Shown here piece by piece: positions 2,691-52,259 of a DNA stretch of 64,000 nucleotides. The first letter of the stretch is position 1. Each line of letters starts with the position of its first letter. Position numbers and translations under genes: made by a program. This DNA is from Ciborinia camelliae (taxonomy: Eukaryota > Ascomycota > Leotiomycetes > Helotiales > Sclerotiniaceae), in contig JANPYM010000004.1 in NCBI GenBank assembly GCA_025890175.1, positions 1,867,134 to 1,931,133 of the forward strand. The letters run 5' to 3'. The notes under the pieces are model-generated. The model was not told the DNA's origin and ran no database searches. It was given only the letters and a program-made list of their open reading frames with translations.

Positions 2691-2778
2691 GTTTTGTTGC
2701 ACATCTGCGACAGCTGTCAATCTTCGGAAAGTGGAGCTTACTGAGCTTACTGGGCCAGGTTGTGTTTTGTTGCACGTC
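2691..2778 (-). repeat. Two inverted copies of the GAYRTGCAACAAAA motif
   Basis: On the minus strand the motif reads GATGTGCAACAAAAC (2705-2691) and GACGTGCAACAAAAC (2778-2764), start to start 73 bp apart. Both are preceded on that strand by an AGCTGTC box. The same core is repeated many times at 24.4-28.9 kb on the plus strand. Confidence 0.7.
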
Positions 2779-11151: not shown

Positions 11152-14100
11152 ATGAGTTTTGGCTTTGGTATAGGCGACATCCTCGCGGTGATAGAGCTTG
11201 CCAAGAAGACACGAAAAGAATTTCTCGATGCACCAAGTCAGTTCAAAGATATTTCCGATGAGTAAGTTGTTCTAGTTGTATTTGAAATGACATTAACTTA
11301 TGAAACCATTTAGGGTGAGAAGCCTCAAGATTGCGCTTGAAGATATCGAAGACGAGCTATCAGTGCCAGAAATCGATGACAAACAGCAGAACGAACTAAA
11401 AGAAATCGTCGATGGCTGTCGTAATGTTCTCGAAAAACTACAGCAAACTCTAAACGCATATGGCGAGTTGAAATCAGACTCTAAGAGCTCGAGTTTGACG
11501 ATTCGGTCAACGGTCTCTTCTACAACTGCCTCTTCTACTTCAACGGTCTCTTCTACTTCAAGGGGCGTTCGGAAAAAGGTGAAAAGCATTTTGAAGAGGT
11601 TTGATTGGGATCCGGAGGATATCAAGGAACTTCGAAGTCGTATCGCGACAAATGTTGCCCTTCTGAATACTTTTCTTGGAAAAGTTACCCAGTAAGTATC
11701 ATCCCCTTGAGTAAGTTTTCGACTAATGTAATCTAGTAAAACATTACAAGAAATGAAGAACAGCGCGGATCAATTTTATGAGCGACAAGATATCAGAGTT
11801 CTCAATGAGGAATTTTCAACAATTCTTAATTGGCTTACCCCAATCGATTATGCTCCTCAACAGAACGACTTCATCAAGCGGCGACAAGAGGGAACAGGAC
11901 AGTGGCTTTTGGACTCTCCAGAATTCCATGAATGGGTAGAAATCGACAACCAGACATTGTTCTGTCAAGGCATTCCAGGAGCAGGCAAGACAATCCTTAC
12001 GTCAATCGTAGTAGAGGAGCTTACTACTCGGTTTCGAAACAACCCCAACATTGGTATTGCATATCTGTATTGCAATTTTCGACGCCAACAGGAGCAGCAA
12101 GTTGATGATTTACTATTAAGTCTTCTCAAACAGTTAGCTGAAGGTCAGCCTTCACCGCCAGACGCCGTGAAAAATCTTTATCAGCAGTACTCAGCCAATC
12201 GTTTACGACCATCATCAGATGAGATCTCGAAAACTCTCGAATCTGTATCGGCTATATATTCCAAAGTTTTTCTTATTGTTGATGCTCTTGATGAATGTCA
12301 AGCGACCGATGGTTGCCGAATGACATTTCTATCAGAAATTTTCAATCTTCAATCAAGATGCCAAATAAGCCTTTTGGTAACTTCAAGAGATATTCCAGAA
12401 ATCAACGAAAGATTCAATGAATCTATAAGTTTAGAAATCCGAGCAAGCAATGAAGATGTGGAGAGATACCTAGATGGACACATGTCCCAGCTACCTGGGC
12501 ATGTGCTTAAAAGTACGGAGCTGCAAGATGAAATCAAGACAGAAATCATTAAAGCAGTTGATGGAATGTATGTATCTCCTTATAAAGTTAGTGAGTTAAG
12601 CTTATATGTATATCTTCTAGGTTTCTGCTTGCAAAGCTTCATCTTGATTCTCTAAAAGGGAAACCCACCCGAAAGCGTACCCGGGAAGCTTTAAGAAAGC
12701 TCCCGACTGGATCCGATGCATACGATTTTGCATACAAAGACGCTATGGAGAGGATTGAAGGTCAACTTGAGGATGAAACAGATCTTGCGAAACAAGTTCT
12801 TTCGTGGATCACGTGTGCAAAAAGGCCTCTTACAACAGCAGAACTCCGGGAAGCGATTGCAGTGGAGATAAATGAATCAGAACTTGACGAAGAGAATTTC
12901 TCGGAAATCGACGCAATGGTTTCTGTATGTGCTGGATTGGTTACTGTTGATGATGAAAGTAATATCATCCGTTTAGTTCATTATACAACACAGGAATACT
13001 TTGATCGAACACAAAGCCATTGGTTCCCGAATGCAGAGACTGATATTACAACAATTTGCGTCACCTATCTCTCATTCGACGTTTTTGACGGATTTTGTCC
13101 AACAGAAGCCGAATTTAAGGAGAGATTACGATCAAATCGGTTCTTCGATTACGCCACAAATAATTGGGCTCATCATGCTCGTAAGGCTTCAGTTTCAAAT
13201 CAAGCATTAAAACAGGCGATCTTAAGATTTCTTGGAAGCAAAGCCAAGGTTGATGCCTCATCGGAAGGAATATCGGCCGAGGTCCAATATTATTCCCCCA
13301 CCCAGAACATTTCCAGCACGATAACAGGAGTACATCTAACAGCATACTTTGGAGCTGAAAATGTTTTGCAGCTACTACTCGATACAGGCGAATTCCAAGT
13401 AGATTCGAAAGATAATGAACGAAAAAATATGGATTATTATGGTTATTTTCATTATATCGGTTATCGTGGTCGAACGCCACTTTCGTATGCTGCGGAGAAT
13501 GGCCATGATACAATTGTCAAGCTTTTGCTTGATACAGGCAAAATCGATATCAATTCGATGGATTATAATCAGCGAACATCACTTTCGTATGCTGCGGAGA
13601 AAAGCCATTATACAATCGTGAAGCTTTTTCTTGATACAGGCAAAGTCGATATCGATTTACGTGATATTTATGGTCGAACGCCATTTTATTATGCTGCTAT
13701 GGATGGCCATGAAGGAATAGTGAAGTTTTTATTTGATACAGGCAAAATCGAGATCGATTCAGAGGATTCTGAAGGCAGAACACCTTTTTTATATGCAATT
13801 GAAGAAGGGCATAAAGAAATAGTGAAGTTTTTATTTGATACAGGCAAAATCGAGGTCGATTCAAAGGATTCCTATGGCAGAACACCTTTTTCATATGCAG
13901 CTGAACAAGGGCATGAAGGAATAGTGAAGTTTTTATTTGATACAGGCAAAATCGAGGTCGATTCAAAGGATTCTCATGACAGAACACCTTTTTTATATGT
14001 TGTCATGAATGGCTATAAGGAAATAGTGAAGTTTTTATTTGATACAGGCAAAATCGAGGTCGATTCGAAGGATTCTTTTGGCAGAACACCTCTTTCATTT

Positions 14101-14511
14101 GCTGCTAGATTGGGGGAGGAAGCAGTGGTGAGGTACTTGCTCGATATTTGTAAAGCTGAGATCGATTTGGCGGATTGCTATAATCAAACGCCACTCTTTT
14201 GGGCTGCTAAAAGGCGGTACAAGGGAGTAGTGGAGTTGTTAGTCGAGAAAGGCGCTAATCTAGATATTGTTCCTTTACGCAATGAAGATTGGGAGTACGA
14301 TCATCGCAGTATCCGGGAACTAATAGATGCAAATTATGATGAAGAAGATGATGAAGAGGATGATGAAGAGGATGATGAAGAGGATGATGGAGAGGATGAT
14401 GGAGAGGATGATGGAGAGGATGATGGAGAGGATGATGGAGAGGATGATGGAGAGGATGATGGAGAGGATGATGGAGAGGATGATGAAGAGGATGATGGAA
14501 TTATACATTAA
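11152..14511 (+). CDS. NACHT-ankyrin NLR (STAND) protein
   Basis: Fungal NOD-like receptor, probably a cytosolic non-self or heterokaryon-incompatibility sensor by family analogy. Exons 11152-11261, 11314-11691, 11737-12567 and 12621-14511 give 1069 residues. Order: a helical N-terminal signalling region ([19 protein letters not shown], residues 1-160) with a Ser/Thr-rich linker; NACHT NTPase with Walker A GIPGAGKT (about 240-247) and Walker [10 protein letters not shown] (about 340-348); a winged-helix-like stretch ([20 protein letters not shown]); ankyrin repeats (about 675-1000); and an acidic EEDD/GEDD tail. Four consecutive 102-bp ankyrin units share an almost identical core. I cannot name the N-terminal domain with certainty. 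The gene looks intact. Confidence 0.92.
13720..14127 (+). repeat. 102-bp near-identical ankyrin-coding units
   Basis: The string starting GTGAAGTTTTTATTTGATAC begins at 13720, 13822, 13924 and 14026, exactly 102 bp (34 codons) apart. The units are nearly identical at DNA level for about 50 bp and differ mostly in the codons just after GRTPF. Neighbouring ankyrin units upstream are much more diverged. Confidence 0.9.
14338..14500 (+). repeat. Coding 12-bp minisatellite (acidic tail)
   Basis: About 13.5 tandem copies of a 12-bp unit, GAGGATGATGGA or GAGGATGATGAA, in frame, encoding EEDD/GEDD. The copies fall into a block ending in GAA, then a uniform block ending in GGA, then one GAA copy, which suggests expansion by slippage. 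Confidence 0.95.
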
Positions 14512-23937: not shown

Positions 23938-24470
23938 ATGTTAAAGGTAAGGAGGATACAATTTATATATGATTATTAGAGAAAGGTTATTTGGACACCG
24001 TCAGATTGTAATAGAAAATAATATAGACGGATGATTGATACTATTTTCAACCGACTAAACACACCACGTCACCTTTCTCTAACCATATCTTCGCAGCAAA
24101 CATGTTTCGTATTTCCTATATACACCGCAGTAAAGCCTACAATCTTGCGCCTCATAATCCGTTCCTCAACATCCAAAATTCAAATTTCCAGATTTCTAGT
24201 TTAATGATTTAAGCACAGAGATGAATAATTTGAGCACATAGGTGAAGGGAGACTAAGTCCAATTTCCATGGGGACCCTGATACAACCCCAATATCACTGC
24301 ACGAAGGTACCTCAAAAACCATATCTTATTTCATATACATACTAGTTATGCACTAAACATCAAACTCCAGCACATCCACAAAGAATGTCACGCCACCCTG
24401 ACTCAGAAATCCAAGTATCCTACCTACCCACCTACCTACCACCCACTCTGAACCGCCGAATCTTCGGGGG
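23938..24470. other. 3' flank and spacer before the motif array
   Basis: No gene. It contains CTACCTACC-type short repeats at about 24415-24450 and otherwise AT-rich sequence. Confidence 0.45.
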
Positions 24471-26979
24471 AATCAGATATGCAACAAACTCTACCTTGGT
24501 ATATTTGAATTTCTATTTATATTTCTCATGTTCTTGATTGGTTTGATCCTCTCCGAGATCTCGGATTTTACTATTGAAGGTTAGATGTGCAACCAATCGT
24601 TCATTTCGATGTACCGGTATTCTTTTCTTGATTGGTATAGTAGGCTAGCCGGAGGGGAGATACCTTTGACTTCTTACTTTCTCCGTTGAGAGCAATGGAT
24701 ATATTTACCTATTTATAGATATACTTCCTCGTTGTCTTTTTCAATAGAGCAAAACACAAAATTCAATGTCAGATATGAAATCCGTCTATAAAAGTATCTG
24801 AGATCTCCGATTCCGCGGATATACAACCGTGACAACCCCTTCCATTCTAATTTCCCTATCCAGTTTCCCTATCCCATATCCCGAGGTCCTGATATACATT
24901 GATTATAGAGGAAAATGGAGATGGAGATACATACATAGGTATTCCTTAGGCCGGAGATATATGAATTATATATATACCTATGATATGGGCGGGTAGATAT
25001 TTATGTTGGGACTCGGATCGGAGGAAAGAGAGGTAGGTCATTACTTTCTTATGAAATAGATTACTGTATATGTATATAGATGGAACCGATGGAATTTATG
25101 AGTAAGATTCTGTTTATATCCATCCGATATGAACTATAAGTCTGGAACGGAAGATTTTATATTTGTATTTCTCTATTATGTAACCTATACGTAGGTATAT
25201 ACGGGTCTGTATTTATACACCGAGTTTTAGCGCGAATTGTAGGCTATTCGGAGACAAGCTACCCCGCTGTGACATATGTAACGCAGATCTCGCTGGTTCA
25301 ACAATAATAACAACATACTACGGACCTGACGGCGGAGCTTCGGGGCTTATGAGACGTGCAACATAAACATATTGGAGATGAGGATGAAGATGAGGATAGG
25401 GTATCATGGGTATCTTTACTAGGGATTTTATATGTTGTGATGAGTAATGTGTAATGTGTGAGGAGGGGAGAGAGAGATCCTACTTGTTGCCTCCGCGGAG
25501 GAAATGAGGAAATGTGAAAATGCAAAATCCGTGTTGGGTGATTAGTGATCAATAGAGAGTAACAGATATTCCAAAGACTCCATCCAATTGAGATTAAATA
25601 TTACGCACAACAGATATAAAAAACCGAAACAGGACGGCGGAATTCTAGCAGTTGAAAACCATAGGCATAGGTAGGCATAGGTAGTAATAGTATACCACAT
25701 CCAGAAACCACCCATTGGACCAATAACATCATCCCCGAACATAAAGACTTCGGACTTATAGTAGATATGCAACAAAACAAAATCAACTATCGAACTTATA
25801 TGATTCGGACTTATACAATATACAACAAGAGCACAATCCAGTGACCTCGAGCACGAAATTCCAATAGAATTCCATTTTAATAATGGATGTTTCGGGGATC
25901 TTATAGACCGTTTGTCTGGAAATGGATAAATAACACCGATATATCGGATTCGGCGTCGGACATGACATCGCCGAATCCTCAAATAGCATCTCCGAATCAG
26001 GGGGGGGCAAGGAAGACAGGAAAGAAGTAAAGTAAAGTATCTAATAAAATAAAGTGAATTAATCTCCGCCATTTTCGGATTTATATAGATATGCAACAAA
26101 AGAATTTCCCAAGTTCGGGAGTTTGGTTGCGTCCAATGATTTGAGTAGAAAGGGGGTTTGGTTGACATGTCGGAGGTTATGGCGCTGCAGGTAGACGGAG
26201 ATCTGAAGAAGCGAGACACTGAATTGACGGTGGTTCGGGTGTTATCATATACAGCGAAAGAGGGGCCAGATCCAAAGTCCTGCTGGAACACTGGAAAATT
26301 GATGTCCGATGGTATGGAAATGACGGATCCCGGAGTTTAGATAGACGTGCAACAAATATCAAAATGTTTTGGGGTGGGAAATGATTGGTTGAGATGGGTT
26401 GTACTTGAGGGGTTTGGTTAGCTGGATGTGTTGGTTCTTCAAGATGAATGAGGCGGGATTGAAACAATCGGAATTTCGGCCTATACAGAATATTCCGTGT
26501 GGAAAAGGTAGTTGCTTGCTGGCACCACAACAACTAAGTCAAACAGTTGGGTTAAGAGACCACTCCTCACCATTTATTACCAAGAAAATAGTCAGAAATC
26601 CATGATCGGTCCAATTCGGATATAATAGACATGCAACAAAAGTTCTTTCATTACCCCTCCCTCTCAATCAAAATCATTGAATTGCATATTCGGGGGTAGT
26701 ATTGACATATAAACCCCGATGGGTTGATTAAAGCATCGAATGTTCGGGTGTAGCGATTCATGTCTAGTACAACTTACCGGTCTACTGAGTGGGTAGATAG
26801 GTACCTTATGTACAGTACATATGGTAAATGATGTTTCGGAGGTAAAAAGAATTGGTTTTTTTGGGCTAGTAACTTAGCTGATTTCTTTCCTATAACAACT
26901 CAATCAGAAAGGATAATTGTGTAGTTTCGGCGATGATGTTAGATGTGCAACATTTGAGAAATTGTTTAGCGGTTATTGA

Positions 26980-27021
26980 TCGGTGATTTTTAGACCTCAG
27001 TCGGTGATTTTTAGACCTCAA
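26980..27021 (+). repeat. 21-bp tandem duplication
   Basis: TCGGTGATTTTTAGACCTCA followed by G/A occurs twice head to tail (26980-27000, 27001-27021), inside the motif array between two motif copies. Confidence 0.9.
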
Positions 27022-28691
27022 TCGCCGTCTTATGGCGTTGGTGCCACTGTGGTGATTTTGGCGAGATGAAGGAGGCCCGACAATATCCGAACTGTCGGAG
27101 TTACTGTGACATTCAGATCATACCAAGTACCTACTCTCCTCCTTAACAACAATACATATGAACCTCAATCTCCCAGCGTTCGGATTTTCGGATCCTTAAA
27201 GACATGCAACAAAAGAGTAAAAATTACCACTTTTGAAACCCTAAATATCTGGATTATTACTCCTAAGTTCCGAAACCCCGTTCGTTTCTAGATTCTATCT
27301 TGGATGGAGTACTGAACTACTTACTCATGCTACATACAACTCCACAAACAACACCACGAACAACACGGCTATGTGCTTTCGCTATCCTCCAACAGAATGC
27401 GGAATACGGAATACGAGACATTTGCGATATGCAACAAAATGAACAGAGGCGAGTTAATTCGCTCCTCTCAGCCTGATGAGTTGGCTTGTTTCCAGCGATT
27501 CAACCTCATACGCGGATTATGATCTTGACCAAATTCCGCTATCGTCAGTATCGCGATCGTCAGTTTCCATAACGAGATATCTGATATATATACATACCAC
27601 TTCTCAATCGCATTGGAAAACCCTCGGAATTGATAACGGAACATTGTATTTTACGATATGCAACAAAAGTTTTCATGAAAAGAATTTCATATCTAACGAG
27701 ATGGGCATTCTTTCCATCAAAATTCTACACTCCGCACAGTACCTATTTCCTCTTCTCAAGTCCCGAAGTCCCGTTCCGCTGTCATGTCATCCAACATTTG
27801 ACCCAACAACACATCCATCCTCCTTATTGTGGATATACTCTGGCATATCCTCACGAATGCAGCGGAATGTGGCGGTTTTACGACGTGCAACAAAAGCTTT
27901 CTGTCGGAAAGGTTTTGATAGAGTATTGATGTGGGTATTGGATTCTGGGCTAGAGCCGCCACAATGGGCTGTCCAAGAGTTTTCATCTGGCGTGGTTCCG
28001 CCATCAGCCAAGTTTTTATCTGGTGATACTTGTACCTTGCCTGATAACCTAACCTTACTTCATACCTAACCCTCATAACTAGGTAGGTAATTTGTAAAGC
28101 CCTGCCGCCACAACCCCATGGCTTTGGCTTTTCGGCGGATAATCACGGAATTGGGAAAATTGTAGATTTGCAACAAAAGCTTTTTGGTATTCTTTTTTAT
28201 AGGTGGAATTTGTTTGTTGGATGGATGGCTGGCGGGAGTTGCCAGATTATCTAGGTAGACCTTCCCAAGTTTGAGTCCGGAAGGGAAACTTTTTATCATA
28301 TTCCGCGACAGCGGAATATGGAACTTCTGAACAAAGCTACTATTTATAGCCCCCAAGAAGCACTTGATTGACTCTTTAAGGTACAGGAATCGCTATGCGG
28401 AATTGATAACCTTAATTGTTAACCTAGGCACTGTTTTCTTCCTATCTACATACCTCACCCCGGCATTCTCAAAATTAATATATACCACATTACAATCAGT
28501 ATAAATAGGCGGAAATATCAATGCTCAAGAATTTACAACATGCAACAAAAGAAGTTGACTCGTTGTTCTTTTCTTTGTAGAAGTAAGTCAGTCATACCTT
28601 CCTTACCTTTCAGTGCCTCCGCTAGATCAAGTCAGTTTCATGAAGGGGTTTCGAATCAATGGATTTATATGTATATTGTATTGTTGATATT

Positions 28692-28769
28692 ATTATTGTG
28701 TATCGAGCTAAGTTCTATAGAACTTAGCTCGATGACTAAGCTAGTTTATATAGAACTACTTTATATCAA
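28692..28769 (+). repeat. Dispersed hairpin element, copy 1
   Basis: It runs from ATTATTGTGT to CTTTATATCAA around a perfect 32-bp palindrome at 28702-28733 (ATCGAGCTAAGTTCTA and its complement). The same element, in reverse orientation and with a longer hairpin tip, is at 63406-63500. It has no coding capacity and looks like a small structured mobile or RNA element. Confidence 0.9.
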
Positions 28770-28928
28770 TATATTGTCTTTGTCTTTGTCGGGCTCGAAT
28801 AAGAACAAATACAAATAGAAACCAATCAATGTTTAAGCTTACTGTATTACAATATATACCTACCTTACCATGGTACTGGACTCAAGTATTTTGTCGGCAT
28901 CCGAAAAATTTCAGATATGCAACATTAC

Positions 28929-31900
28929 TTGAATTTCCATCACTGTCGGGTTCCGACCCCCGGGGCTCTTTTATCATTGGAGGAGGGGGGTGTTTATTTT
29001 TGTCGATATCCTTGCTTGTCGGGGGTTGGTTTGAAAAATATTGGAATACTACCTACCTCCTGTGGTATCAAAATGTAACATCTTATTTTGTTGATGGATT
29101 TTTATTGAAGTGAAGTGAGGTGAGGTGTGTCATGTCATGTAATGTCAAAAGTTAGGGTGAGTTAGGTGAGATATAGGAAGATGGATGTGTAGCCCTGAGG
29201 ATTAGTATTAGGACCGTCACGATTCATGATGTAACATCCAAGTACCGTAACCGTAACGCCTCCTGGTTGTTACACTCAGGGACCGTAACGCCCTAAAATC
29301 CATAGAGCAGGCTGAGAATAACGCTTTCAAATATACCCACCTAGGTACATAATGCCTTTATTACAGTAATATACAATTCTTAACTTTCAATATTAAGCTT
29401 TATTAGTATCCTTAGGTAGGTAATCTTACCTATCTTTGTATATCAATAAAATCGTTTAATAGGTACTAGTATATCTAAAAAAGAATGTAACGGAACCCCT
29501 TCTTTCCTACCACCACTGACTGATATATATATCATTCGGAGTACACACATCTCGACATTACCTAATTTATATACTGAACTGTTAGTTTGGGGAGCAGGTT
29601 ATATATATCATGACTGGCTGGCTGGCCGATAGCATGCAAGTGCATGCGGAGATCTGATCTATTTATTTTGATCAAATCGTATGCAAATAATCTCATATTG
29701 AATGGTGTTGGTTATTATATGGTAGGCGCGACCATCGTGTGTATATAGCCTCGGGATCGTACACTTAGCATTCATCAACCTCTATATATCCTGCATCAAG
29801 AATTCCACCCTCAATGGGAGGGATATATAGTTCATTTTCTCCTTTTGTTTACATTGTGAGGGTGACTCGTACAGTCTACGAGGTCTTCTACGTGGTCTTC
29901 TACGTGATCTCCATCGAGAATTTCATTGCGGTGCTGGAATGGCATTTGTAGATGTCAGAAATAAGACTCAAGATGAGATTCTTGAGACATGGGTATCTTG
30001 ACGATGAAGATAAATACTTGAGATTATTATCCAAACTTTCGTTGGGTTTCGGTGAGTGCCATCGCCACGAAGCAGGGTATTCGCGCTCGCTTTGTTTGAT
30101 GAGAACGATTGGTAGAGTATGTACGTATGTACCGGTGTCTCAATGTCATTTTGGGTGTATATATATTACCAGGTTGAACCGTCGATGACAGCAGATCTGC
30201 GATCAAGAACTTGTTTTTTGCCAAAGCGACGGCACATAGATATTGCTGGGACTAGTAGGGCATGAAATACTTGGCTGCTAAACCAGTACACGTTTATGAA
30301 TTGACCCAACAATTGCTGTCTGTACTGTACATATGTACATCATGTAGGTTAGCAGCATTATCAGCAATCATTCAAGCGAATAAGTCGATACCATATACAT
30401 GCAGAGTGTGTAGCTACCATCACAGCCTGCTAAGAATACAAATCATTTCATGATAACTCTCTCCCTTCTTGGATGTACCAACTTATTTCTCTGTCATAGA
30501 GCCATATTCATTGTATTTAACAAATATAGTACATTCGTATGTATTGCAGATCCTTAAACGCAGACTAACAACGAAGTCGAACCTCTCAGAATTCGCTGGA
30601 GCCCTGGCGGTAATACTTTCTATCTAGTTGATACACCCTGGGCAAGATTGAGAACAAGAAGCCAACAATTCGCGAAGCAGAATTGTCAAAATCTCTCCAG
30701 GAATAAAGTTCAAAGACCCGTCATTCACCATCGATCTCTTCCTGGCCAACATGCAGAATATAAAAAAAATACAAATTCCTTGACCATGAAACGAAGCGCG
30801 CTGACGAGCGTGGAAATACGTATACCTAAAATATGTTTGGCACCATCACTATCTTCACCATCGATCCTCAAAACTTGTAAATATATTATAGTTCCAAGTT
30901 TAGAGACTATGGATTCAGCATCTGAGAAGGAGACCTTTGTACCCATTCTTGGGACATGGTTCACGAAATGGTCGAGGAAACAGACAATGGACAAGAATTT
31001 CCAAATCAAATCTTACACGTTTTTTAGCGACTCATGAATCAACGGCTATAACAATTGGAAATGCAATTTGCTGATTGAGTAGCGATGAGAGGGATTGAAA
31101 AAGGTTGGCAAGAGAGCTGTTCGAAGCTGGGGAGATGGTGAAGGGAATGAGATATTTACTGGGGGCTGGATGAACATTTGGTGTTCTTTTTCTTATAATA
31201 ATTTTCCTCAATTTGGGGGTTGTATTGAGTGAATATCCCGATTCTAAGTTCTAACAAGTGTACTAGTTTTAAGACTAACCCTCGTCGCCCCCAAAGACGC
31301 ATTTTCCCTCGAGAAGGCAGTCTCGCGTATTCACCATCCAAGCCGGTACAATTATTAACCCCAATAACTATGCATTCCACCGAAGTTAGAACGGTGGGGG
31401 GCATTAAGACATATGATATTTCGTCTTGAAAGTAAAACTAGGGTATATGCGGGGAGACATCTGGGGTTAACGGAGTTGACATATTTACTTGCTAGATTGG
31501 TACAGTAGTGAAAGGGGGCAAGAGTTAAGGGATTACCTAGGTAAGGGAGAGGGTGGAGGAGATTAAATTGAGTGTGGAGAATTGGAATGGGGTGGGCTTA
31601 ATAAGTCTTTGAAAATTGTTACACTGAGTAGAAAGCTCATTGTAACGATCATATTTGGGAAAAAGGCATGAGGACTAAAGTTGGTAAGGCAAAGCACGAT
31701 TCGTATTGAATTAAGAATAATCATGCATGATCTGATGCATGACATCATCCATCATTAATAGCATTAATCAGAGGAAGTCACATAAGATATTTCGAAAAAC
31801 AAGCTACTACGTATCTAATATGTATTTGGTGAATTTTGGAAATACATTCATATGCCTACCTACTAGGTACTTTTATTTTGTCTATAACTTGATGATTGAT

Positions 31901-40623: not shown

Positions 40624-41605
40624 AGTGGAATAGCAACACGAGATGGATGCTTGTTAGATATCTTGGCCAGCCTAGATATTTGGAAGAGAAGATTCTGGTA
40701 AGTTGTCTAATTTGGGAAGATTTGGCTAGAACCAGACTTTTTTGTATTGCGAGGAAAATAGAAGTTGATAAGATATCCACAAGATGTTATTGTTGGTATC
40801 AACCTGGCGATGGTTCAAAATGTGAAGTACTTTATGCTATGTATGTGTATGATGATTCTTGATTCCTATGCTAAGGTGGATCTCTTATATAGAGGATGTA
40901 GTAACAGGGGTGGATTTATCAGGTCACATGGGGACTAGACTAGTGTAGTATTAGCTTAGGATCTGGCTTATAAGCAGCCATAATTTAGATCTTGAATCCA
41001 TATCCCTTCCCACCAAAGCTATCCTATTTTCTGTAACCACCGGTCTGCCATGAGACAAAAAAATAAGCGAATGAAATATGTGACTGTAGGACAAATCCTG
41101 GTTTAACACGCTTCAATTTGAAGTTTTAATAAATGCGAATACCTAGCTATCAATGAGACGATGCAGATAGCCGAGTACTTGGGTATGAGATTGGTTTGAG
41201 AGGATAGAACACTGGTAACGGCCTGGCTTTTATGGCGTTTCTTTTCCTTCCAGTCTTCAAACTACTTTTACTTGACACTCTATACATACGTCCTATATCA
41301 TTCTGTATCTACCCCAGGAGGAGAGCTAATTCCCCCAATAGAGTTCAGTAGATGTTTGCAATGCTAATTGGATACGAATCGACAGCTCAAAGACGGCTTT
41401 GATTCTTTGAACTCAAAAGCTCTGTTTCGTTGCTTTGTGTGCAGGAAAGGTTCTCGTATCTTATTTTTTATGGTTCCCTTTTCGAGAAGTTGCTAATTCT
41501 TTCCACAAAGACTTTGCTTCCTGTTGGGTACTATAAAAATGTCATCTTTCACCACACAAAATTAATAGCTCAATTCCATACCCAAGAATTTTCTAAAGGC
41601 CCGCC
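40624..41605. other. Intergenic region with dispersed repeat copy B
   Basis: Promoter side of the 2EXR gene, then the dispersed repeat at 40908-41038, then AT-rich sequence up to the coiled-coil gene. No other gene seen. Confidence 0.5.
40908..41038 (+). repeat. Dispersed ~130-bp repeat, copy B
   Basis: Starts GGTGGATTTATCAGGTCACA, passes TATTAGCTTAGGATCTGGCT and ends CTATTTTCTGTAACC. Closest to copy A at 2333; same strand. Confidence 0.8.
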
Positions 41606-46049: not shown

Positions 46050-46119
46050 GTAATTCAGTGTTACTCAATATGTCCACATCCTTTAGTTATGGAAATCTAT
46101 TACAGTCCGACTCAGTAAT

Positions 46120-46255
46120 AGGGTGGCTTTATCAAGTTACATGAGCACTAGCTTAGTGTAGAATTAGCTTAGAAAGTGGCTTTATAAACAACCGAACTTG
46201 AGATCTTCAATCCGGGGCCATATCCTTCATCTCCGAAACAAGTCTGTTTCTGACT
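46120..46255 (+). repeat. Dispersed ~130-bp repeat, copy C
   Basis: Starts GGGTGGCTTTATCAAGTTAC, passes GAATTAGCTTAGAAAGTGGC and ends GTCTGTTTCTGACTCC. It is the most diverged of the three copies, with several C-to-T differences from the others. Confidence 0.75.
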
Positions 46256-49551: not shown

Positions 49552-52259
49552 CTAGATACGGATTTCACTAACGAGTTTTAACTCGTGAACACTTGCAATA
49601 TGAAGGTCTAGCTCCGAAGCTCTCCATTGCAACGCACACATGGGCCTGTAGTTGCAGTAAGGACATTTTATCTCTTTGGGTGTTATTGATTCAACCAACA
49701 CATTCTCGTCCCCGAACATAGGCTCCGGTTCATCCTCTTCCATGAGAGTCGGTAAGGCTTGCGAAGCCAGATGGTTCTGAGGTGCCAATGATTCTGCGGG
49801 ATCAAAAGACCAAACCCCAGCCGAATATTCCGATGAAAATATTACAGGCGTGGGAGCTTGTAAAGAAATGGACGAATCTTTCGACATAGATGCCAGAGGA
49901 TGAGGATCAGATATAAAAGAGTTTGATGTTTTTTCGATATTGCCAAACATGTCATGTTGAGCCGCAATCTCTGTGCCATAAGCTGGCCCACAAAAGTCGG
50001 CACCCGCCCCCAGTGCTCGTACTTTAGGGCCTTCAATTTCAGAACTAGAATCGATAGCGCTGTGGCAGCAGTGACTTTGTGTTCCTTTACAATTAGTCAA
50101 TTGGGAATCGCCCCAAACATGGGTTTCCACCGCGTGATCATTCTGCAACATATGAGATGAAGACCACCGAGGAATCACTTTAGCTGCGGCATGTGTCACA
50201 AGTGACTTGAGCCTTTTCGTTTTGCCCTTGCCGGAGGTGATTTTATTCTGCTCTGAGATTGATGATGGACTAATGGAGGAGGTGAATACATCCTTTTTCG
50301 GCCATTGTGAGGTATAATATTCGTCAGTTTCAGTAGGGTGTAGCTTTGCACCGGCGTCAGCCAAGGCCATTGCGCAAGATAAAATCTGCGCATGCAGCGT
50401 ATCGTTTGAATGAGTTTTCGCTTGGTCTAAGTGAATTATCACGTCAAGATATACACTCCGTCCACTATCACTTCTGGTATTAGGGTTCGCTCCAAAACGA
50501 AGTAGAGCAACAACTATCTGCCTCAGACCTTGACGAGCTGCTACTGCCAGGCCTGTGTAGCCATATGAGTCTCTCAAATATATGTGATCTTTTGTGGTAG
50601 CTATGGCAATCTCATATTCTTTCTCGATCGAGTTGCATGCCTCAAGGTTATGAAACCATTGACGCCGTGCATCATTGTGCCTTTCGCTGTCAATCTCATC
50701 TTCGAGCTTGCTGTTCTCCAATATTTTGTGTATGCATGTCCTTCCACGAAAGTCACTCGTTTTGTGTTTCAGGGTGAGCAAGATCTCTTCGTGTGCCGGG
50801 TAAGACTTGCTGAAAACGTTTATGGGCCGTGCGAGAACATGCAAGAAAGTCTCTCCAGAAGTATTTTGATAGCTTATAAACGAGACAGTAGATGGCTTGA
50901 TAGCCATGAGTACAGAATGGATATATCCTACGTTGCCAACTGCTGCAGCATGGTGTAAAGCTGCGTTCCCAAATTTGTCCTGGATAGCAACATCCTCAAT
51001 GGGCCATCCAAAGGAATGATACAGGTCATTGCGTGCAATAGCGTGTGGTGAAGCAAAACCACAAACATCACAAGGCACACCCGTAGGTGAAAGTTGAAGC
51101 CCACAACACGGTCGAGTGAGTAAAGATCTGGTAGATGTTCTATAATTAGTCCCTGATAAAGAATCTAATTCCATATTAGATTCATCCACGGCCATATGCC
51201 ACCACTCCTGGTCACTTTCAGCCAGAGACAGGTTCCCTGATATGATCGAGCCTAAAGAGGAGCGGTTGATCGCAGAAATTCGACTCGACCTAAAAGAATT
51301 TGTAGCCGAGAAGACTGAATGAGCAAATCGGGCTGAGCCCGATAAGATTGAAGATATGCGAGTGCCTATTGTTTTGACGCTGGCACGAGATGACTGACTG
51401 TCAAATGGTACAAACCCTCCCTGAATACAAGGGTTTGGAGAGTCAAGTGCTTGTTTGAATATGGAAAAGCCGGGTTCCGATTGGCAAGTTCCTGAAGTGT
51501 CCTCACTGTCACGAGCCAATTGAAGGTCTATTTCGGGAACAAAATGCTTAGGAAGAGATTCGACTTTTTCGGGCAGTAAATTGTTGACAGTGATAGGCAG
51601 AAAACCGCCTAGATCTACCCAATCAAAAGAAGAAAGGCCCTGGACGGGCCGACAGTTGGGTTCCGAGTCGTGGGTTGCTGAATTGTCTTCAAGATTATTG
51701 CTACTCGCCCCACCAGAAATCAACTCCCTATTGTTGCTAGCACTATCAATGCTTAGAAACTCTTGAATAGGTGAGGCATTCAATTCCGAAGACCATTTTT
51801 GACTTATCTCGGACATTGAAACATGTGTTGGAATTCCTTCCGGTAATGTGATCTCGTAATTCCAATGGGCTAATGCATTATAATAAATGTTTTGAGGGTC
51901 TGGGGGTTCCACAGACATAGAATTTGCTTCACATTGAGCCTTTTCGGATACTAGAGATGAAGAGCCTCGATTTCGCCGTTTCTCTAAGTACTTCAATTTG
52001 AGACGAGTGTGTGACGAAATTAAATGCATCGTGCATCTCTTCCACATCTCGACTCGAATTTTGCTCTGGCCTTTCCTTGAAGGTCTGTAACTTTCATGGC
52101 CCTTATCTCTGTTTGGCAGCAACTTGCTCAATTGAGTTTGCACATCTCTGAGACTACCACGTCAATTATTTAGTATGTACTCGCCATAAATGCAATCGAA
52201 TGACTTACTTACCATGGCTTGAAATCGGCAGTAGCCAAAAATTGGCAGATTTTTGGCAT
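49552..52259 (-). CDS. Large ankyrin-repeat protein with C-terminal zinc-finger-like motif
   Basis: 882 residues from a short first exon (52259-52213, MPKICQFLATADFKP) and a long second exon (52153-49552). The N-terminal ~80 residues are basic and conserved-looking (LLPNRDKGHESYRPSR, KWKRCTMHL-like). A long Ser-rich, probably disordered segment follows, then a CCGLQLSPTGVPCDVCG cluster, then ankyrin repeats (about residues 395-590; FGNAALHHAAAVGNVGYI, YGYTGLAVAARQGLRQIVVA). A second disordered stretch ends with CPYCNYRPMC...HIASVH, spaced like a C2H2-type finger. A scaffold or nuclear regulator is a guess only. The first exon was chosen because it ends at GTAAGTAAG and supplies an ATG; the long frame itself has none at its upstream end. 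Confidence 0.85.

Follow-up and report, generated by a model that had tools for sequence, protein, structure and literature searches.

Homotypic clusters of transcription factor sites in animal enhancers hold many copies of a short motif, separated by free spacers and accompanied by nearby partner motifs. The CENP-B box is a single short protein-binding sequence that centromeric satellites retain although they are otherwise unrelated. In Caenorhabditis elegans, the pairing-centre arrays are short-motif clusters along the chromosome with unconstrained spacers, while the type-1 PIWI-interacting RNA (piRNA) genes, with their upstream Ruby motif, combine a clustered short motif with unique DNA between the copies. 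Here we describe an array that is like each of these in part, at positions 24476-28928 of a 64,000-nucleotide stretch of the Ciborinia camelliae genome (C22:1867134-1931133, within the 46.2-Mb assembly of 27 contigs; hereafter the window). It comprises 16 co-oriented copies of a core motif in a gene-free block and exemplifies a pattern found across the genome. Our best explanation, for which we put the chances at about even, is that such arrays are platforms to which one sequence-specific DNA-binding factor binds, in some arrays along with array-specific partners, and that they multiplied through local tandem duplication.

Genome-wide, the pattern GAYRTGCAACAAAAG (at most one mismatch) has 435 matches, against 11 for the reversed control. 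An earlier reading of the window, made from its letters alone (the sequence-only reading), had proposed a frequency comparison with shuffled DNA; run with the reversed pattern as its control, that comparison places the motif far above chance. Exact copies of GAYRTGCAACAAAA number 322. They are followed by G in 63 cases and by another base in 109 (GATATG), 51 (GATGTG) and 99 (GACRTG) cases, for which the reversed patterns gave 0, 0 and 0. Cluster statistics rest on the 313 of the 322 exact sites that were listed with positions. Neighboring exact sites lie no more than 1 kb apart in 102 pairs, compared with about 2 expected by chance, and 85 of these pairs are on the same strand and 17 on opposite strands. 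There are 28 clusters of at least three exact sites, containing 124 sites, with seven on contig C1 and three each on C23, C24 and C26; in 19 all sites share one strand, and 9 are mixed. The motif is thus clustered far above chance, as in a homotypic cluster. Another 153 of the 313 sites are isolated, with no second exact site within 2 kb. Six of eight such places examined lacked a second core (at most one mismatch) within the 0.6-0.9 kb fetched, and the other two, L055 and L058, had further cores close by.

We also examined 20 other regions of about 8.5-10 kb in the C. camelliae genome, plus smaller ones, and built a family-weighted profile from 30 array families or single loci (174 sites, transposable element copies left out), in which each family counts once. 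Strong sharing across arrays is seen only at positions -1 to +14, namely A or C, then GAYRTGCAACAAAA, then C or G, which gives the 16-bp core M-GAYRTGCAACAAAA-S. As positions 0 to 10 are fixed by site selection, only the remaining positions of the profile are informative. At -1 the frequencies are A 0.78, C 0.16, G 0.00 and T 0.06, and T is weakly preferred at -4/-3 and at +16 to +18. No common second motif was found within 150 bp, where the top shared 6-mers were fragments of the core. CCAAT appeared promising as a general partner box when sites were pooled, and faded with equal family weights. Similarly, no single spacing or nucleosome phase applies to all arrays, as there is no one peak and spacing is array-specific. 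A CGGA box at fixed distance gave only 2 exact matches genome-wide, both in the window block.

Within the entire window, matches to the motif with up to three mismatches number 25, against 6.7 expected from shuffles. Sixteen start at 24476-28914 on the plus strand of the block, whose minus strand has none, and TGCAACAAA is present unaltered in 11 of the 16. These counts agree with the sequence-only reading, as does the spacing of 225-314 bp between 26088 and 28165. The CGGA/TTCGG box described there, and with it the bipartite layout, was also recovered: 15 of the 16 sites have TCGG or CGGA between -26 and -6, whereas random anchors within the block average 3.16 and never reached 15 in 5000 draws; within 30 nt of the core, all 16 sites have one. 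The box in the opposite orientation (CCGA or TCCG) is found at -26 to -6 in 3 of 16 sites, and TCGG or CGGA at a similar distance downstream of the core also in 3 of 16. CGGA density is 8.8 per kb in 25201-28950 versus 2.3 per kb elsewhere in the window. CGGA also favors the motif strand of the block (33 CGGA versus 16 TCCG), and this excess reaches beyond the surroundings of the motif. The block had been called gene-free, which holds as far as tested. Coding scores are low across it, and its two longest ATG-initiated open reading frames (ORFs; 208 and 197 aa) gave no Pfam match at the curated cut-off and, among about 5.8 billion proteins, no homologue at E <= 0.001; this database includes at least one annotated C. 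camelliae protein.

Some sister arrays carry boxes of their own. In family F2 (L029 and L030, on two contigs), the block TGAAGCTTTT begins 63-64 nt upstream of the core, with TATCT and AGATC nearer the core at nearly fixed distances; the units of about 240-300 bp can be aligned across about 110 bp. Family F1 was found by pattern at six clustered places and two lone matches. Its block CTTGTTRGGATNNRCCTTGCAAAA ends 10-11 nt upstream of the core in most units, and many units show a stretch resembling GATTGG around +30. Upstream, the F1 block forms an imperfect inverted repeat, TTGYWRGG-N5-CCYTGYAA (L032, L011, L009, L048, L049 and L050), and would be either a dimer site or a hairpin. We scanned 21 array/strand sets for 5-mers, counting as over-represented those reached in at most 12 of 400 random draws. 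Downstream of the core, this identified ATTGG in L011 (0 of 400) and L030 (8 of 400) and TGAAT in L048 (3 of 400), with no 5-mer at a comparable level in the other 18 sets. Upstream, one of the 5-mers identified was AAAGT on the plus strand of L034 (5 of 400), and at L034:1000-3000 several cores are preceded by the palindromic AAAAGTACTTTT or part of it.

Because the sites were found by their core, conservation of the core among them proves nothing, and units were therefore sought by the private block alone. For F2, all 14 matches to the upstream box (17 specified bases; L029 and L030) that differ from it at 1-3 bases are followed at 63-64 nt by a perfect core; the unit at L029:656 was not recovered by this search. 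For F1, 29 of 41 matches to the upstream block have a core with at most two mismatches. Mismatches of 0, 1, 2, 3, 4, 5 and 7 were found in 6, 8, 15, 5, 4, 2 and 1 cases, 4 of the 41 being copies inside a large recent duplication in L048. Many of these mismatches fall at the last four positions, often with CAT or CAC instead of CAA. Conservation in F1 is arranged in separate blocks with flat divergence outside them, and shows no smooth decay from the core. The motif is thus conserved over its spacers within this genome, in paralogous arrays only, which supports the proposal of the sequence-only reading that selection acts on the motif rather than on the spacers.

Duplication is also evident in these loci. 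Recent local copies are seen in L024 (a 53-bp repeat) and L048 (a segment of about 1.74 kb). These copies, the recurrence of F1 and of F2 (the latter at two places) and the presence of the core in an element of about 2.5 kb with terminal inverted repeats would fit functionless decayed tandem repeats, that is, old satellites or element-derived sequence in which gene conversion or biased duplication kept the core and its close flank alike. We consider this unlikely, since unrelated arrays have the 16-bp core and little else in common, many exact sites stand alone, most of the isolated places examined have no second core, and F1 is conserved blockwise. The spacers had been described as unique, with no tandem satellite. 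No whole repeat unit was recognized in the window array beyond the core and the CGG box. The description needs qualifying: with tandem duplication seen in the sister arrays L024, L029-L032 and L048, spacers elsewhere derive at least in part from repeat units that have diverged, and those of the window array may do so too. The 2.5-kb element itself has inverted terminal repeats of about 350 bp and occurs at L014:2723-5193, L018:4526-7060 and L022:3152-5408, in AT-rich loci (GC content 0.30-0.37). Each of its three copies has one exact core shortly inside one end, and CACGTG and TATATAAG come next in the flanks.

The core can be read in codons as GAY RTG CAA CAA AAS, or D-[MV]-Q-Q-[KN], and F1 as a Cys-rich peptide; coding was therefore tested directly. 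The F1 units of L048-L050 are free of stops in that frame in 8 of 16 cases, versus 3 and 1 of 16 in the other frames, and peptides such as TCKDEACKKRTVDVQHKSF are protein-like in appearance. However, these units are not independent, and the other measures argue against remnants of coding repeats. Difference rates at the three codon positions of F1 are nearly equal (0.396, 0.390 and 0.416; 0.411, 0.387 and 0.402). Outside F1 and F2, stops in the three frames number 84, 95 and 104 of 1708 at -45 to -1, and 104 of 1830, 105 of 1708 and 97 of 1708 at +15 to +60. For F2, stops at -45 to -1 are more frequent in the motif frame than in the other two (17 versus 9 and 9 of 224). The third would-be codon, with that base left free, is CAA in 186 cases and CAG in 2. 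The F1 peptide matches only F1 places in the genome (18 matches, 20 candidates scored; open frames of 28-74 aa). Remnants of coding repeats are thus mostly refuted and appear very improbable. Codon-position rates, stops and CAA/CAG counts all agree with the earlier statement that no reading frame is preserved. A viral or phage origin was likewise rejected, as the F1 block had 0 matches in viral contigs. In the same check, GATATGCAACAAAAC matched at least 120 stretches, with one match apiece in the 80 listed and no cluster among those, a count that comes without a chance expectation.

The sequence-only reading had also offered a long non-coding RNA or a tandem set of small RNA genes. Here the array-specific boxes would belong to the RNA, and the core would be a promoter box, a processing box or a 3' box, or else the place where a protein or guide binds the transcript. 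Co-orientation, which is strong among close neighbors and complete in the window array (16 of 16), agrees with these options. The degenerate positions Y and R would preserve pairing to one guide RNA via G-U pairs, and the F1 inverted repeat upstream of the core has 97.8% of 182 cells paired. On the other hand, none of the 7 F1 pairs is altered on both sides and shuffles equal the observed values, while the F2 consensus structure has 0 pairs. Nor does the preference for A or C at -1 correspond to a wobble pair class, and orientation is mixed in 9 of the 28 clusters. No Rfam match at the gathering score was found in the window or in 8 array loci, and no tRNA in the window, so a known structured RNA was rejected; a new one has no covariation support in the two families tested, F1 and F2. 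Rfam and covariation thus give these options no support, and we regard an RNA role for the arrays as rather unlikely, though it may yet hold.

We therefore return to a DNA-binding platform, which, given the mixed-orientation clusters, fits best among the three explanations of the sequence-only reading. These clusters argue that double-stranded DNA is what is read, and we infer DNA, rather than RNA, to be the target. An invariant word in both orientations, with no sign of coding or of RNA structure and with a partner word at a fixed or nearly fixed distance in some arrays, is best explained as a DNA site for a protein with partners. In this model, M-GAYRTGCAACAAAA-S would be the putative recognition site of one sequence-specific factor, with sites collected in non-coding arrays, each of 3 to 16 copies. 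Some arrays would pair every site with an array-specific box (CGGA in the window array, different ones in others), which a second factor probably binds, and core and partner box together may form a cooperative bipartite platform. Such arrays would expand by local tandem duplication; their spacers would then diverge, whereas the core would be retained together with any partner box. An effect on chromatin or on transcription of the intergenic block is conceivable for such a platform. Taken as a whole, the earlier interpretation is partly supported: selection, bipartite layout, non-coding character and enrichment stand, whereas its account of the spacers does so only as qualified above.

Several observations weigh against a DNA-binding platform. 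The same-strand excess among close neighbors is what an RNA reading also predicts; it can be attributed to growth of the arrays by local duplication, as is visible in L024 and L048. The F1 and F2 block patterns were themselves derived from core-bearing units. Among F2 box matches with 4 mismatches, 1 of 3 has a core and the other two have nothing similar, and 12 of the 41 F1 block matches have cores with three or more mismatches. An over-represented upstream 5-mer was found in only 6 of 21 sets (the window array, L011, L029, L032, the plus strand of L034, and L048), with the signal of L048 inflated by recently duplicated units; the 15 sets without one include L009 of F1. This suggests that array-specific partners exist, but are not universal or not all detectable by a simple test. 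CCAAT lies beside the core in F1, F2 and L016, yet it is not generally enriched (0.24 versus 0.12-0.21 in other windows). Finally, gene 3' ends face the arrays in 17 of 21 scorable flanks (one-sided binomial P 0.004). This tally covered the 12 arrays of at least three sites that had a segment scoring 20 or more for coding, and took the nearest such segment on either side; two further arrays, L016 and L026, had none. It was made by hand, with a threshold picked after the table had been seen, on a small sample in which 8 of the 12 arrays come from contig C1. The arrays thus do not resemble ordinary gene promoters in appearance and, as a lead, either avoid promoters or are tolerated away from them.

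The arrays sit in gene-poor intergenic stretches. Ten neighboring proteins were searched, and seven fall in Pfam families, no two of them in the same one: RAI16-like, Rap1/ARID, pyruvate carboxylase, ubiquitin hydrolase, ELMO, Rrn11 and sodium/hydrogen exchanger. The Rap1/ARID protein, adjoining array L017, is NHQ30_000627 of C. camelliae (100% identity). Shared flanking genes were rejected, as the similar-sized neighbors of L009 and L011 are unrelated. Features of the motif in the window are collected in Table 1, which includes a two-copy minus-strand cluster of the same core outside the array. Elsewhere in the window, at 11753-14511 (+) and 49552-52047 (-), adjacent ORFs carry NPHP3_N/NACHT and, besides it, a winged-helix domain and ankyrin repeats, in a NOD-like receptor-like architecture; a second ORF has a weak ankyrin match. 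A dispersed repeat of about 100-130 bp (40900-41032, 2325-2426 and 46111-46213; identity 78-88%) is common to the window and the F1 array locus L009 (L009:4993-5128).

Table 1. Core motif copies and arrays in the window, with the boxes that accompany them
Feature	Position	Strand	Remarks
Whole array	24476..28928	+	gene-free block, 16 co-oriented cores, motif-strand CGGA excess
Core copy 1, GATATGCAACAAACT	24476..24490	+	TTCGG box at 24463
Core copy 2, GATGTGCAACCAATC	24584..24598	+	TCGGA box at 24561
Core copy 3, GACGTGCAACATAAA	25353..25367	+	TTCGG box at 25339
Core copy 4, GATATGCAACAAAAC	25764..25778	+	TTCGGA box at 25749
Core copy 5, degenerate, AATATACAACAAGAG	25817..25831	+	TTCGGA box at 25804
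Core copy 6, GATATGCAACAAAAG	26088..26102	+	TTCGGA box at 26074
Core copy 7, GACGTGCAACAAATA	26344..26358	+	CCGGA box at 26330
Core copy 8, GACATGCAACAAAAG	26628..26642	+	TTCGGA box at 26615
Core copy 9, GATGTGCAACATTTG	26942..26956	+	TTCGG box at 26926
Core copy 10, GACATGCAACAAAAG	27201..27215	+	TTCGGA boxes at 27179, 27187
Core copy 11, GATATGCAACAAAAT	27426..27440	+	CGGA boxes at 27400, 27407
Core copy 12, GATATGCAACAAAAG	27655..27669	+	CGGA boxes at 27625, 27637
Core copy 13, GACGTGCAACAAAAG	27882..27896	+	CGGA box at 27863
Core copy 14, GATTTGCAACAAAAG	28165..28179	+	CGGA boxes at 28136, 28146
Core copy 15, AACATGCAACAAAAG	28537..28551	+	CGGA box at 28510, 27 nt upstream, beyond the -26..-6 test range
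Core copy 16, GATATGCAACATTAC	28914..28928	+	TCGG box at 28894
Two-copy core cluster	2691..2778 (2691-2705, 2764-2778)	-	CAGCTGTC directly upstream of both

Compared with the systems outlined at the beginning, the fungal arrays differ in several respects. Unlike homotypic transcription factor clusters, they reach 4-5 kb, lie mostly on one strand, number dozens genome-wide and, where scored, mainly face gene 3' ends. The CENP-B box differs in sequence from the core, whose binding by a protein is putative here, and no long satellite was seen in the loci examined. With seven clusters of at least three sites on contig C1 alone, the arrays are not one per chromosome and so are not arrays of the centromere type. 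We know of no fungal equivalent of the C. elegans pairing-centre arrays. In contrast to the piRNA genes, some fungal arrays retain extra array-specific blocks, and any transcripts from the fungal arrays are hypothetical; to our knowledge, fungi lack a piRNA pathway.

We found no description of the motif or of such arrays in fungi among the matches listed in open PubMed Central (PMC) papers. The 11-mer TGCAACAAAAC occurs there in 18 papers that appear unrelated judging by title, and none of these also contains any of five 15-mers. The main text of PMC10544508, on small RNAs of Sclerotinia sclerotiorum, contains neither GCAACA nor TTGTTGC. We regard the arrays as probably a variant of the clustered protein-binding site.

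The arrays might also be locus-identity platforms, in which a single genome-wide anchor protein would read the universal core and the array-specific partner boxes would mark individual arrays, or small sets of them, with separate addresses. Such addresses could serve, for instance, to pair homologues, to insulate the chromatin between convergent genes, or to silence. We know of no anchor-plus-address system of this type in fungi, and none appeared among the matches listed in open PMC papers. If true, this would be more striking than a clustered protein-binding site, but it is less likely, and we regard it as improbable.

That a 16-bp word recurs in hundreds of exact copies, with a concentration in conserved non-coding arrays, implies the existence of a major trans-acting factor, and no description of one appeared among the matches listed in open PMC papers. 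The arrays also provide a natural series in which to follow how a functional site is multiplied by tandem duplication as its spacers decay. If the factor that reads the core binds DNA, it would be an abundant and easily assayed entry to long-range or chromatin-level regulation in the Sclerotiniaceae.

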